From contig NZ_VFPG01000001.1 of assembly GCF_006716565.1 (NCBI RefSeq), forward strand, positions 682,001-746,000: a DNA stretch of 64,000 nt. The letters run 5' to 3'. Made by a program: the position numbers and the translations under genes. Each line of letters opens with the position of its first letter. Position 1 is the stretch's first letter. The stretch is from Nocardia bhagyanarayanae (lineage in GTDB: Bacteria; Actinomycetota; Actinomycetes; Mycobacteriales; Mycobacteriaceae). Shown here in pieces: positions 21,327-59,135 of this stretch. Below the pieces are notes generated by a model. It searched no databases and was not told the origin of the DNA. It saw nothing but the letters and a program-made list of their open reading frames with translations.

Positions 21327-22418
21327 TCAGCCCGCGCGGCGCTGGGCGACGGCGTCGGCGAGGCGGTCGAGCTGGGCGGCGGTGGTGGACCAGTCGATGC
21401 AGGCGTCGGTGATGGACTGGCCGTAGGTGAGGTCCGCAGCGCGGCCGAGGGTGAGGTCCTGACGACCCGCGACCAGGAAGCTCTCCAGCATCACGCCGAC
21501 GACGCTGCGCTCGCCACCGGCGATGCGCTCGGCGATGTCGGTGACCACGTCGACCTGCTTGTTGTGGTCCTTGTTGCTGTTGCCGTGGCTGGCGTCGACC
21601 ACGATGCGCTCCGGCAGGCCCGCCTTCTCCAGGCGCAGGCAGGCCTCGGCGACGGAGGCCGCGTCGAAGTTCGGGCCGGTGCTGCCGCCGCGCAGGATCA
21701 CGTGGCAGTCGGGGTTGCCGGTGGTGCGGATCAGCGCGGAGCGGCCGTCGAGGTCGGTGCCGGGGAAGACGTGGCTGGCCGCCGCGGCGCGCACGCCGTC
21801 CACGGCCACCTGCACGTCGCCGTCGGTGCCGTTCTTGATGCCGACCGGCATGGACAGCGCGCTGCTCAGCTGGCGGTGCACCTGGCTGGCCGCGGTGCGC
21901 GCGCCGATCGCGCCGTAGGAGACCAGGTCCGCGATGTACTGCGGGGTGATCGGGTCGAGGAACTCGCAGGCCACCGGCAGGCCGAGGGCGGTGATGTCGA
22001 CGAGCACCTTGCGACCGATGCCGAGACCGGTGTTGACGTCGAACGAGCCGTCCAGGTGCGGGTCGTTGATCAGGCCCTTCCAGCCCAGGCTGGTGCGCGG
22101 CTTCTCGAAGTAGACCCGCATCACCACGTGCAGCCGGTCGCTCAGCTCGGCGGCCTTCTCGGCCAGCCGCCGCGCGTAGTCCAGCGCCGCCGCGGGGTCG
22201 TGCACGGAACACGGGCCGACGATCACCATCAGGCGGTCGTCGGCGCCGTCGAGCACGTCCACCGTGGCCTTGCGGCCCGCGCGGACGGTGTCGGCCAGCG
22301 GATCGCTGATCGGGTGCACCATGCGCACTTCGGCCGGCGAGCGTAACGGGCTCACGGACAGGGTGCGCTGGTCGTCGAGATCGGAATGCCGCGCGTCGAC
22401 GTCGGCTGCGGTTGTCAT
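21327..22418 (-). CDS. aroF: 3-deoxy-7-phosphoheptulonate (DAHP) synthase, class I (AroF/G type)
   Basis: Condenses phosphoenolpyruvate and erythrose 4-phosphate, the first step of the shikimate pathway. The 363-residue product has class I signatures: IVGPCSVHDP, MRVYFEKPRTSLGWKGL, GARTAASQVHRQL, VDASHGNSNKDH (metal and PEP binding) and ESFLVAGRQ near the end. I chose ATG at 22418, preceded by AAGGAACC. The 155-nt upstream region encodes a leaderless aromatic-codon-rich leader peptide (22503-22574), so synthesis is very likely attenuated by aromatic amino acid supply. Many related bacteria also have a class II enzyme elsewhere; this would then be the second, regulated isozyme. Confidence 0.93.
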   Translation of the reverse strand: MTTAADVDARHSDLDDQRTLSVSPLRSPAEVRMVHPISDPLADTVRAGRKATVDVLDGADDRLMVIVGPCSVHDPAAALDYARRLAEKAAELSDRLHVVMRVYFEKPRTSLGWKGLINDPHLDGSFDVNTGLGIGRKVLVDITALGLPVACEFLDPITPQYIADLVSYGAIGARTAASQVHRQLSSALSMPVGIKNGTDGDVQVAVDGVRAAAASHVFPGTDLDGRSALIRTTGNPDCHVILRGGSTGPNFDAASVAEACLRLEKAGLPERIVVDASHGNSNKDHNKQVDVVTDIAERIAGGERSVVGVMLESFLVAGRQDLTLGRAADLTYGQSITDACIDWSTTAAQLDRLADAVAQRRAG

Positions 22419-22422
22419 TTGT

Positions 22423-22451
22423 GTGGGTTCCTTTTCTTCAGGCCGACCCAC
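22423..22451 (-). promoter_or_regulatory. Hairpin next to the aroF Shine-Dalgarno
   Basis: On the minus strand GTGGGT (22451-22446) can pair with ACCCAC (22428-22423), leaving the AAGGA Shine-Dalgarno at the edge of the loop. The same nonamer GTGGGTCGG also occurs inside the leader peptide (22534-22526), so the ACCCAC beside the Shine-Dalgarno could pair with either copy, an obvious basis for a switch. A second hairpin, GAGCCGG/CCGGCTC (22468-22489), lies between them. Confidence 0.4.
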
Positions 22452-22502
22452 GGACATGAATACCGTCGAGCCGGTCCATCATCCGGCTCGGGGTGGAAGA
22501 AG

Positions 22503-22574
22503 TCAGCGCATGTGGTTGCCGCAGACCGACCCACCCAGGGCCGGCTTGCTAAACCAGAAATACGCGCGCTGCAC
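22503..22574 (-). CDS. Aromatic leader peptide controlling aroF (AroR-like, 23 aa)
   Basis: GTG at 22574 opens a 23-codon frame ending TGA at 22503. Residues 5-8 are Tyr-Phe-Trp-Phe, all three aromatic amino acids in a row, an arrangement expected only by selection. GTG is exactly 7 nt after TACAGT (22582-22587), so the message is probably leaderless and begins with this codon; an in-frame GTG at 22583 is less likely because it would overlap the -10. Ribosome stalling at YFWF when charged aromatic tRNAs are scarce should change folding of the downstream RNA. Corynebacterium glutamicum has a known analogue, aroR upstream of aroF, with a run of Phe codons. Confidence 0.82.
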   Translation of the reverse strand: MQRAYFWFSKPALGGSVCGNHMR

Positions 22575-22581
22575 GTCGGTC

Positions 22582-22587
22582 ACTGTA
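22582..22587 (-). promoter_or_regulatory. -10 box TACAGT of the aro leader transcript
   Basis: TACAGT on the minus strand lies 7 nt before the leader-peptide GTG, placing the transcription start on or next to that codon. No convincing -35 is visible, as is usual for this class of promoters. Confidence 0.6.
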
Positions 22588-22695
22588 CCAGCCGTTGGCA
22601 GCCGGGTGACGCAGGGGCCAACTTCCATGATCGAGACGGCGTCGGTCGTCACATCGATACTCGTCGGCTACCGACTCCTGCGGCCAGGAACGTGA

Positions 22696-23169
22696 TCAGC
22701 TCCACTGGCCCGGCTGGTACCCGCCCGCGGGGGTGCCCGTGATGACGTTCATCCGGTTCCAGACGTTGATCAGTGCGATGAGCGAGACGAGCGCGGCGAT
22801 CTGGTCGGTGTCGTAGTGCTTGCGCACCTGGGCCCAGGTCTCCTCGCATACGCCGGTGTGCGCGTCGGCGAGCCGGGTGCCTTCCTCGGTGAGGGCCAGC
22901 GCGGCCCGCTCCGCCTCGGTGAACACGGTGGCGTCGCGCCACGCGGCCACCAGATTCAGCCGCACCTGATCCTCGCCCGCGTGCAGGGCGTCCTTGCTGT
23001 GCATGTCGGTGCAGAAGCCGCAACCGTTGATCTGGCTGGCCCGCAGCTTGACCAGCTCCTGAGTCGCGCGGGGGAGGGTGGACTGCTCGACGACCAACCC
23101 CGCGTTGCCGACGCGCTTGGCGAACTTCGCGCCGATCTCGGTGCCGTAGTAGTCGAAACGCGCTTCCAT
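22696..23169 (-). CDS. AhpD-like carboxymuconolactone decarboxylase family protein
   Basis: A 157-residue all-helical protein. The redox motif CGFC lies in ASQINGCGFCTDMHSKDA, matching the ExxxxxxCxxC-x3-H pattern of AhpD-type alkylhydroperoxidases. Members reduce peroxides or serve as thiol-disulfide partners. The Shine-Dalgarno is AGGGG 6 nt before the ATG. It may be a target of the ECF41-type sigma factor nearby (18887-19807), since such factors commonly control this protein family in other actinobacteria; here the genes are not adjacent, so this is inference only. Confidence 0.85.
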   Translation of the reverse strand: MEARFDYYGTEIGAKFAKRVGNAGLVVEQSTLPRATQELVKLRASQINGCGFCTDMHSKDALHAGEDQVRLNLVAAWRDATVFTEAERAALALTEEGTRLADAHTGVCEETWAQVRKHYDTDQIAALVSLIALINVWNRMNVITGTPAGGYQPGQWS

Positions 23170-39727: not shown

Positions 39728-40693
39728 ATGGCAAGGGATCTGACTCAACTCGAGCTGCTCACGGAGTTGGAGCCGGTTGCCGAAGAAAACGTCAACCGGC
39801 ACCTCTCACTGGCAAAGGAATGGCATCCCCACGACTACGTGCCGTGGGACGAGGGCCGCAATTTCGCGGCACTCGGGGGTGTCGACTGGGACCCGGAGCA
39901 GTCCCGATTGAGCGAGGTCGCGAAGGCGGCCATGATCACGAACCTGCTGACCGAGGACAACCTCCCCTCCTACCACCGCGAGATCGCCGAGAACTTCTCG
40001 CAGGACGGCGCGTGGGGCACCTGGGTGGGGCGCTGGACCGCCGAGGAGAACCGGCACGGCATCGTCATGCGTGACTACCTGGTGGTCACCCGCGGTGTCG
40101 ACCCGGTCGCGCTCGAAGAGGCCCGCATGGTCCACATGACCAACGGCTTCGCCTCCCCCACCGAGGCCGACGCCGGCTTCCTGCACTCGGTGGCGTACGT
40201 GACCTTCCAGGAACTCGCCACCCGCGTCTCGCACCGCAACACCGGCAAGGTCTGTGACGACCCGATCGCCGACCGCATGCTGCAGCGCGTCGCCGCCGAC
40301 GAGAACCTGCACATGATCTTCTACCGCAACATGTGCGGTGCGGCCCTCGATCTGGCGCCCGACCAGACCCTCGAGGCCATCACGCTGATCCTGGAGAACT
40401 TCCAGATGCCCGGCGCGGGCATGCCCAATTTCCGCCGCAACGGCGTGCTGATGGCCAAGCACGGCATCTACGACCTGCGCCAGCACCTCGAGGACGTCGT
40501 GGAGCCGGTGCTGAAGAAGTGGAACATCTTCGAGCGCGACGACTTCACCCCGCGCGGCGAGGCCGTCCGTGAGCGGCTCGGCAACTTCCTGGAGAAGCTG
40601 GGCAAGGACGTCGTGAAGTTCGAGGAGCAGCGCGACCGCATGCTGGCCCGCGAAGCAAAGAAGCGCGAACTCACCGGCGCCGCCGCGATCTGA
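39728..40693 (+). CDS. desA1: Acyl-ACP desaturase (DesA1-like diiron enzyme)
   Basis: A 321-residue soluble stearoyl-ACP-desaturase-type enzyme that inserts a double bond into acyl-ACP, in mycobacteria a step in mycolic acid precursor synthesis. Diiron ligand motifs are visible: LTEDNLPSYHREI (first Glu), TAEENRHGIVMRDYL (EENRH), FQELATRVSHRN, and ADENLHMIFYRN (DENLH). The length is close to DesA1 (338 aa). AAGGG lies 7-8 nt before the ATG. Downstream comes a strong terminator. Gene order desA1-dus-LCP-phoU matches, from memory, mycobacterial Rv0824c-Rv0821c. Confidence 0.92.
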   Translation: MARDLTQLELLTELEPVAEENVNRHLSLAKEWHPHDYVPWDEGRNFAALGGVDWDPEQSRLSEVAKAAMITNLLTEDNLPSYHREIAENFSQDGAWGTWVGRWTAEENRHGIVMRDYLVVTRGVDPVALEEARMVHMTNGFASPTEADAGFLHSVAYVTFQELATRVSHRNTGKVCDDPIADRMLQRVAADENLHMIFYRNMCGAALDLAPDQTLEAITLILENFQMPGAGMPNFRRNGVLMAKHGIYDLRQHLEDVVEPVLKKWNIFERDDFTPRGEAVRERLGNFLEKLGKDVVKFEEQRDRMLAREAKKRELTGAAAI

Positions 40694-56165: not shown

Positions 56166-56999
56166 ATGGCTCGCTCCGATGTCCTGGTCTCCGTTGACTG
56201 GGCCGAAGAGAACCTCAACGCCCCCGGCGTCGTCTTCGTCGAGGTCGATGAGGACACCTCCGCCTACGACGGCGGACACATCGAGGGCGCCGTCCGGCTC
56301 GATTGGAAGAAGGACCTGCAGGATCAGGTTCGTCGTGACTTCGTGAATCAGGAGCAGTTCTCCGACCTGCTCTCGGCGCGCGGCATCTCGAACGACGACG
56401 AGGTCATCCTCTACGGCGGCAACAACAACTGGTTCGCCGCGTACGCCTACTGGTACTTCAAGCTGTACGGCCACAACAACGTCAAGCTGCTCGACGGCGG
56501 CCGCAAGAAGTGGGAGCTGGACGGCCGTCCGCTGTCCACCGAGGCCGTGAACCGTCCCGCCACCCAGTACAAGGCGTCGGCGCCCGACCTGTCGATCCGC
56601 GCGTTCCGCGACGAGGTCATCGCGGCCATCGGCACCAAGAACCTGGTCGACGTGCGTTCGCCCGACGAGTTCTCCGGCAAGATCCTCGCTCCCGCGCACC
56701 TGCCGCAGGAGCAGAGCCAGCGTCCCGGCCACATCCCGGGCGCCATCAACGTGCCGTGGAGCAAGGCGGCCAACGAGGACGGCACCTTCAAGTCCGACGC
56801 CGAGCTCACCGAGATCTACAAGGAAGCCGGTCTGGACGGCGAGAAGGACACCATCGCCTACTGCCGCATCGGCGAGCGTTCCTCGCACACCTGGTTCGTG
56901 CTGCAGGAGCTGCTCGGCCACCAGAACGTCAAGAACTACGACGGGAGCTGGACCGAGTACGGCTCCCTCGTCGGTGCACCGATCGAGTTGGGAGCGTAA
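56166..56999 (+). CDS. cysA2: Thiosulfate sulfurtransferase (rhodanese, CysA2/SseA type)
   Basis: A 277-residue tandem rhodanese, the same length as M. tuberculosis CysA2. The catalytic C-terminal domain has Cys233 in the loop AYCRIGERSSHTW; the N-terminal domain is inactive (VEVDEDTSAYDGGHIEGA). It transfers sulfane sulfur from thiosulfate to thiol acceptors, in this operon together with the DUF1416 protein. AAAGGAAC lies 8-12 nt upstream of the ATG. Second gene of the operon controlled by the cysteine leader. Confidence 0.93.
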   Translation: MARSDVLVSVDWAEENLNAPGVVFVEVDEDTSAYDGGHIEGAVRLDWKKDLQDQVRRDFVNQEQFSDLLSARGISNDDEVILYGGNNNWFAAYAYWYFKLYGHNNVKLLDGGRKKWELDGRPLSTEAVNRPATQYKASAPDLSIRAFRDEVIAAIGTKNLVDVRSPDEFSGKILAPAHLPQEQSQRPGHIPGAINVPWSKAANEDGTFKSDAELTEIYKEAGLDGEKDTIAYCRIGERSSHTWFVLQELLGHQNVKNYDGSWTEYGSLVGAPIELGA

Positions 57000-58864: not shown

Positions 58865-59135
58865 CGCCCCAGCGTAGCGCCACTTGGGACGCGCTGTTGA
58901 CCAAAAATGGAACGACCCCCGAGCCATACCCGGCGGGTTCGGGAACCTGCGCGGGTCCCGGTCGGACAAGACCGGGGGCTCGGGGGTCGGGTGACTGCCT
59001 GGTATTCGCTCGGCGCCTCGCGCGGGCGGATACCACCTGCAGCGGTGGCGCTAGCGGACAGCCACCTCACGTGTCCTGGAATTACTCATTCTTCGAACCA
59101 CCTCCTTCCTGTGTACTGACGAAATTAGCGAAGGA

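Follow-up and report, generated by a model that had tools for sequence, protein, structure and literature searches.

Introduction

How can a bacterium control, with one switch, entry into the shikimate pathway, a step which serves three products? The question is raised by a locus of Nocardia bhagyanarayanae lying in a stretch of 64,000 nucleotides (contig NZ_VFPG01000001.1, positions 682,001 to 746,000; hereafter the window, to which all coordinates refer), where a short leader open reading frame (ORF) with adjacent codons for tyrosine, phenylalanine and tryptophan precedes aroF, the gene of a class I 3-deoxy-D-arabino-heptulosonate 7-phosphate (DAHP) synthase. Sensing a combined shortage of the three aromatic amino acids through a single device represents a neat control problem. 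Very likely, the element is a leaderless ribosome-mediated attenuator of the DAHP synthase, reading the Tyr, Phe and Trp supply together. As far as can be judged from its sequence, it is leaderless by its geometry, addressed to Tyr, Phe and Trp, common across the phylum and devoid of a U-run terminator in the window. It extends the case known from Corynebacterium glutamicum to much of the phylum, the occurrence of all three kinds of codons in a single conserved leader makes combined sensing directly testable, and the leader may offer an engineering point for the production of aromatics in Rhodococcus, Amycolatopsis and their relatives.

The leader ORF and the aroF gene

The leader ORF occupies 22503..22574 of the minus strand and consists of 23 codons (GTG start, VQRAYFWFSKPALGGSVCGNHMR, TGA stop), with the start codon at 22574-22572 and the stop codon at 22505-22503. 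Its first codons read GTG CAG CGC GCG TAT TTC TGG TTT, the last four of which (22551..22562, minus strand) form the putative sensor, Tyr-Phe-Trp-Phe (YFWF), at residues 5-8. The frame, its aromatic run and its position 7 nt after the hexamer TACAGT (22582..22587, minus strand), all described in the initial annotation, were found again as described. A spacer of 84 nt separates the leader stop from the start of aroF (21327..22418, minus strand), which is assigned to ATG 22418, with a longer start at ATG 22457 being possible, behind the Shine-Dalgarno (SD) sequence AAAAGG at 22435-22430. The product of 363 residues is indeed the DAHP synthase that had been announced, scoring 491.9 bits with TIGR00034 aroFGH of NCBIfam (cut-off 173.2; family name 3-deoxy-7-phosphoheptulonate synthase) and also well above the cut-off of PRK12755. 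It is the sole PF00793 match in the genome and shares 98% identity with a protein of Nocardia xishanensis, the nearest named relative. A class II DAHP synthase is encoded elsewhere in the same genome (locus L215); between 1000 and 1560 of that locus there begins no short ORF having three aromatics in a stretch of five residues, and none was apparent by eye. A search of Rfam release 15 gave no match in 22350-22700 at E up to 1, and none of the six matches of the window reaching the gathering score falls in the leader region.

The transcript probably starts at or adjacent to GTG 22574, because of the spacing of the -10 hexamer. In all 130 aligned leaders, TAnnnT occurs 4-10 nt upstream of an in-frame start codon, at exactly 7 nt in 109 of them, as compared to 0.6 to 1.2% at random single positions, a comparison generous to the motif as the best in-frame start was taken for each leader. 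An SD-like tetramer is absent before the leader start in 129 of the 130.

Conservation before DAHP synthase genes

The leader frame is real and not a product of chance, because it is conserved across Nocardia and beyond. It precedes the gene in 49/49 Nocardia first-copy loci, that of the window included, in 64/65 loci from other genera of the same family and in 29/39 other actinobacterial loci examined, in a sample that is skewed to the closest relatives and whose distant loci were hand-picked among the matches listed. The 64 loci comprise L126 and L135, which were overlooked by the leader regular expression and added by eye, and the 65 comprise three apparent duplicate records (L011/L170, L014/L137, L051/L172) together with ten loci assigned to the family via the genus name, which we take to follow the Genome Taxonomy Database (GTDB) grouping. 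Genome G222, the source of the single miss in the family (L127), has another copy (L157) that carries the leader; L020, in which the nucleotide motif is present and no leader with a stop was recognised, is also counted as a miss. The comparative search proposed in the initial annotation thus found both the frame and its aromatic codons kept before aroF homologues in Nocardia and Rhodococcus, and the loss named there as a refutation did not occur.

At the scale of genomes, R2, a covariance model for the Nocardia-type region built on 38 sequences of which 11 come from the sampled genomes and match by construction, finds exactly one match in each of 146 of the 148 Nocardia genomes; the two genomes devoid of a match are also the only two in which no DAHP synthase was matched. 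The model match ends at, or at most 82 nt from, the first aligned residue of the DAHP synthase (27 of the 146 were compared by coordinates). Genomes possessing two DAHP synthases, e.g., G008, G041, G048 and G059, keep a single R2 match, and five second copies from Nocardia (L195-L199) have no leader. The upstream regions of three of these second copies (L195-L197) are near identical and that of L198 is similar, as seen by eye. A box, GCGTTAGGG, is common to DAHP synthase loci free of the leader peptide (L181, L185, L203, L012) and is perhaps the site of another regulator.

Leader groups, aromatic cores and codon choice

The leaders fall into three groups. Group N (78 sequences from Nocardia, Rhodococcus, Amycolatopsis and others) mostly exhibits YFWF, or YWF, followed by xxPAxGG. 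Group M (32 sequences from mycobacteria, Dietzia and Williamsia, also Isoptericola, Kribbella and others) mostly displays YWRFxxAPGG, and group O (Streptomyces, Micromonospora and others; 21 aligned sequences, 20 without L017, which is not actinobacterial) contains, e.g., YxYFxxAPGG or WYWRYxxAPGG. All three aromatic amino acids occur in the core of 78/78 leaders of group N, 29/32 of group M and 7/20 of group O. The use of all three aromatics, as initially proposed, hence holds throughout the Nocardia- and Rhodococcus-type leaders but is not universal in Actinobacteria with respect to Trp, since 12 of the 20 group-O cores hold only Phe and Tyr. As also proposed there, the ribosome probably senses the combined aromatic supply.

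The sensor codons are rare synonyms in this context. Phe is encoded by TTT in 136/205 cases and Tyr by TAT in 134/141 cases in the leader cores, compared with 5/286 and 19/189, respectively, in 19 long ORFs of the window, which were picked for a high GC content at third codon positions, a choice that inflates the contrast. In the PAxGG tail, the third codon positions are conserved and the residue after PA varies between L, P and R at the place where the RNA helix described below has a mismatch. Because the third positions are kept and the residue changes where no pair is needed, the tail is conserved, by all appearances in the alignment, as RNA and not as peptide.

RNA segments and their pairing

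Five segments of the minus strand make up a chain of mutually complementary partners running from the ORF tail to the SD sequence. Segment 1 (CCGGCCCTGGGTGG, 22531..22544) lies in the ORF tail, where it codes for PALGG, and pairs with segment 2 (CCACCCCGAGCCGG, 22483..22496), located directly after the leader stop, which can take either segment 1 or segment 3 as a partner. Segment 3 (CCGGCTC, 22468..22474) is the 3' arm of a GAGCCGG-loop-CCGGCTC hairpin with segment 2, followed by no U run. Segment 4 (GTGGGTCGGCCT, 22440..22451) is the alternative partner of segment 3 and pairs with the SD region, segment 5 (AAAAGGAACCCAC, 22423..22435), which contains the aroF SD and an ACCCAC arm. Helix 1:2 shows 12/14 positions paired in the window and 12/12 in several group-O sequences. 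The 2:3 hairpin stands alone in group N, whereas an extra hairpin, P2, is inserted between segments 2 and 3 in groups M and O. A second short frame (Phe-Phe-Phe-Val) occurs between the leader and the gene in L153-L155 and L019, where it may be no more than a consequence of T-rich sequence downstream of P2.

The specificity of these pairings was assessed by a swap test, in which the pairing of each segment with its own partner is compared with that obtained with partners from other sequences in 2000 permutations, after thinning of near-identical rows to 48/77 (N), 29/32 (M) and 13/20 (O). L017 (group O) and L136 (group N) were excluded from the swap and folding tests. In group M, the number of permutations as strong as the observed pairing was 0 for 1:2, 5 for 2:3, 0 for 3:4, 31 for 4:5 and 0 for P2, and in group O it was 0, 0, 16, 24 and 0, respectively; the control pairs 1:4, 2:4 and 2:5 gave 1615, 1613 and 1667 in group M, and 532, 140 and 1340 in group O. 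In group N, the SD hairpin 4:5 was equalled by 0/2000 permutations, the own partner being the stronger in 38/48 sequences. At the level of sequence, the test thus shows a specific pairing of 1:2, 2:3, 3:4 and 4:5 in groups M and O, and in group N that of the SD hairpin 4:5.

Helix 1:2 and hairpin P2 were also tested in an alignment of 40 M and O sequences (A2) against 500 shuffles. Two-sided changes occur in 12 pairs, as compared to 5.3 in the shuffles, and the covariation score reaches 0.247 versus 0.105, with 0/500 shuffles as high in either case, and the proportion of paired cells falls to 37-50% when the structures are slid. Most of this signal comes from P2 (8/12 pairs, 62/68 changed cells); in helix 1:2 by itself, two-sided changes affect 4 pairs and 6 cells, and 89.1% of the cells are paired. 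RNAalifold applied to the Nocardia-type alignment, which is near invariant and displays a two-sided change in 1/23 pairs, was uninformative. The model alignments retained 38, 28 and 12 rows, after removal of near-identical rows, of rows with a poor SD guess, and of L015, L016, L017, L061, L136, L192 and L193.

Proposed mechanism and competing explanations

The stalling, the sense in which expression responds and the step that is regulated are inferred as follows. RNA polymerase would start at or next to the GTG, and ribosomes would initiate on the 5' end. A shortage of charged tRNA for Tyr, Phe or Trp would keep the ribosome waiting on TAT-TTC-TGG-TTT. The footprint of a ribosome extends about 10 nt past the A-site codon, and because of this footprint stalling would favour 1:2 and read-through 2:3. 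Whichever of the four aromatic codons it waits on, the ribosome would leave GGGTGG of segment 1 open and the segment wholly or largely free; segment 1 would then pair with segment 2 and prevent the full 2:3 hairpin, with aroF ON. With all three amino acids plentiful, the ribosome would reach the stop codon and cover segment 1 as well as the first bases of segment 2, the 2:3 hairpin would form, and aroF would be OFF. The signal would be relayed along the chain, 1:2 with 3:4 freeing the SD and 2:3 with 4:5 hiding it. This relay to translation via the SD is the branch that we favour for the output, with nearly even confidence, because no U-run intrinsic terminator was found before aroF in the window and because hairpin 4:5, which covaries, can mask the aroF SD. 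When segment 3 is freed in the predicted folds, access to the SD rises in 51 of the 129 sequences and falls in 11, and the mean pairing of 4:5 drops from 0.98 to 0.81 (N), from 0.77 to 0.53 (M) and from 0.81 to 0.44 (O).

Several observations weigh against this model and its relay. The 4:5 hairpin of the window itself remains at 0.99 when segment 3 is freed, and the predicted fold of the window sequence admits part of 1:2 alongside 2:3. Equilibrium folding with the ribosome placed on the first sensor codon or on the stop codon changes the access of the SD but little, the mean values being 0.47 vs 0.38 in group N (of 78 sequences, 34 gain access and 7 lose it), 0.43 vs 0.43 in group M (11 and 11 of 32) and 0.46 vs 0.45 in group O (9 and 3 of 20); a ribosome on the last sensor codon leaves group N flat (0.38). 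Forcing helix 1:2 opens the SD in 17 and closes it in 4 of 77 sequences of group N, with corresponding numbers of 8 and 8 of 32 in group M, and 9 and 2 of 20 in group O. Taken as a proof of SD switching, equilibrium folding of the whole leader has accordingly failed, the copy of the window showing no switch. In the swap test, group N gave 817 (1:2), 849 (2:3) and 1469 (3:4) permutations of 2000, values that are uninformative because these helices are near invariant, and the non-neighbour pair 3:5 gave 124/2000 in group M. Part of the swap result could also be due to ancestry, as the permutations ignore relatedness. Finally, hairpin P2 of groups M and O has no clear role in the model.

A transcriptional output deserves somewhat less credit than the relay to the SD, and is quite possible all the same: hairpin 2:3, or P2 elsewhere, would halt RNA polymerase although a good U run is lacking, or the untranslated RNA past the leader stop would invite Rho, 4:5 then acting as a constant brake. 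The aroR leader of C. glutamicum is described as acting on transcription (PMC11802643, cited, like the other sources identified by such numbers, from excerpts), T tracts occupy the equivalent place in the non-actinobacterial DAHP synthase leaders considered below, and groups M and O possess the strongly covarying P2, with T5 tracts between the leader stop and the gene in 11/32 rows of group M; equilibrium folding moreover holds 4:5 of the window closed in all states. Against such an output, a T5 tract within 30 nt after the CCGGCTY arm was detected in 1/76 group-N rows (L128), with T4 in six more, and an intrinsic terminator at 2:3 in the window had to be rejected: no terminator-like site is found there, the sole one detected (22576-22562) being situated at the leader start. 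In groups M and O, P2 does not overlap 1:2, which leaves its control unexplained, and the partner-specific pairing retained by the SD hairpin also speaks against a transcriptional output.

Three other explanations were considered. Arrest peptides such as TnaC detect a free aromatic compound inside the tunnel of the ribosome, and a nascent YFWFxxPAxGG could behave likewise, in keeping with the unusual conservation of the peptide from the aromatic run to PAxGG. This is nevertheless very improbable in view of the conservation of the tail at synonymous third positions, the residue changes where pairing is unneeded, the pairing segments kept by groups M and O despite a different aromatic core, and the rare synonymous sensor codons, which fit a dependence on tRNA supply. 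It is hardly more credible that the leader merely loads ribosomes or couples its translation to that of aroF with no sensing of amino acids: 84 nt separate the two frames, the products of the pathway are all represented in every group-N leader, the leader adjoins a DAHP synthase wherever compared, and the five second copies do without it. As for a chance ORF, short frames are cheap, and four-codon aromatic runs that include Tyr, Phe and Trp number 2 in the six frames of the window, leader included, and 0.2 on average in 10 Markov windows; the conservation in 146/148 Nocardia genomes and beyond refutes this explanation, whose probability is practically nil.

Relation to known systems

The aroR leader of aroF in C. 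glutamicum was reportedly described by Neshat et al. in 2014, and the leaderless polycysteine short ORFs of mycobacteria are said to be the subject of Canestrari et al. in 2020. The initial annotation rightly considered aroR as a relative, but wrongly credited it with Phe codons alone, the core being Phe-Tyr-Phe (PMC4046766, PMC11802643). Both are short leader ORFs with aromatic codons before a DAHP synthase gene, linked to attenuation, in the same phylum; they differ in the Tyr-Phe-Trp-Phe core of the Nocardia leader, which has neither a separate P2 nor a U run. The response of aroR is reported to be transcriptional and directed to Phe, not to Tyr (PMC11802643), and aroR has also been called a translational regulatory leader peptide (PMC7356990). 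Within the family of Nocardia, L135 recalls aroR by its sequence, MRNWRFYFEWGSGR, and, as judged by eye, by a 1:2 + P2 layout of the group-M type.

The uORFC-13-1 motif before aroF of Acholeplasma consists of an upstream ORF coding for Phe, for which attenuation was proposed (PMC8632094); it differs by its restriction to Acholeplasma and environmental sequences, its ribosome-binding site and apparent intrinsic terminator, and by Phe being the only amino acid named in that excerpt. The mycobacterial polycysteine ORFs resemble the leader as leaderless and amino-acid-responsive leader ORFs (PMC9031893, PMC13236596), the genes concerned being termed translation-attenuated in the excerpt of a citing paper; they differ, by their description, in responding to cysteine and preceding other genes. 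The actinobacterial LEU element (leuA) and trp attenuators similarly tie the RNA of a leader ORF to the SD in the case of LEU and to a terminator in that of trp (PMC1262725). Like trp-type attenuators, the leader carries codons for the products of its pathway (78/78 in group N), and unlike them it has in the window no U-run intrinsic terminator before the structural gene. In the excerpted parts, an actinobacterial survey mentions no RNA structure that would be conserved upstream of Phe or Tyr operons (PMC1262725), and none of eight Streptomyces lividans leaders precedes a DAHP synthase gene (PMC8079986). No description of a leader with all three aromatics before a DAHP synthase gene was found among the titles and abstract openings listed and the excerpts consulted, in a literature collection which misses most subscription papers, and this is no proof of novelty.

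Occurrence before other proteins and in other phyla

A second covariance model, R1, of the M and O type (40 sequences, at least 16 of them from the genomes sampled), has matches in 33 of 158 genomes of the class. Seven of these 33 genomes are not among the 36 that match the DAHP synthase of the window, and in them (L226-L232, from genomes G389, G486, G494, G437, G470, G478 and G417, respectively) the element precedes a protein of another lineage. Their leaders are, e.g., MGRYSSFTRPVPGGPVAIVS, others starting with MGRYSSFTRPVPGG, MNRSFAFIEPAPG and MTCRYAFIEPAPGG. The four proteins scanned (L227, L228, L230, L231) combine partial DAHP_synth_1 and chorismate mutase domains, the DAHP_synth_1 match of L230 lying below the cut-off. 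The element seems to follow the enzymatic step and not one gene lineage, because it also precedes this DAHP-synthase/chorismate-mutase-like protein. The broadest reading, which we hold tentatively and on balance doubt, would be that of a phylum-wide undescribed RNA element in which a leaderless sensor of three amino acids acts as an OR gate responding to a shortage of Tyr, Phe or Trp, connected by the chain 1:2, 2:3, 3:4, 4:5 to an SD more than 100 nt away, and so tied to its step as to have been placed before a distant protein. R1 matches in G509 and G517 are weak (E 3e-4 to 5e-4) and were discarded, that of G509 corresponding by eye to a tRNA-like stretch and hairpin and not to a DAHP synthase locus.

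Outside the Actinobacteria (loci among L017-L080), 38/53 loci possess a leader in which four or more of eight residues are aromatic and whose stop is followed, 20-95 nt further on, by a T5 tract. Among these 38 leaders, a perfect 7-nt stem precedes the T tract in 29, all three aromatics occur in 31 and YFW[FY] in 14, and the ORF repeats 6 nt of the pre-tract arm in 27, compared with 4.3 expected from codon shuffles. They look like ordinary terminator-type attenuators making use of the same trick with the ORF tail.

Other features of the window

A gene for an AhpD-family alkylhydroperoxidase-like protein lies directly upstream of the leader (22696-23169, minus strand). Besides that of the leader, the six frames contain one more four-codon aromatic run combining Tyr, Phe and Trp (YWYF), near 56448 on the plus strand, and two actinobacterial small RNAs of Rfam, Ms_IGR-5 and ASdes, have matches on the minus strand at 58907-59114 and 40046-40113, respectively.
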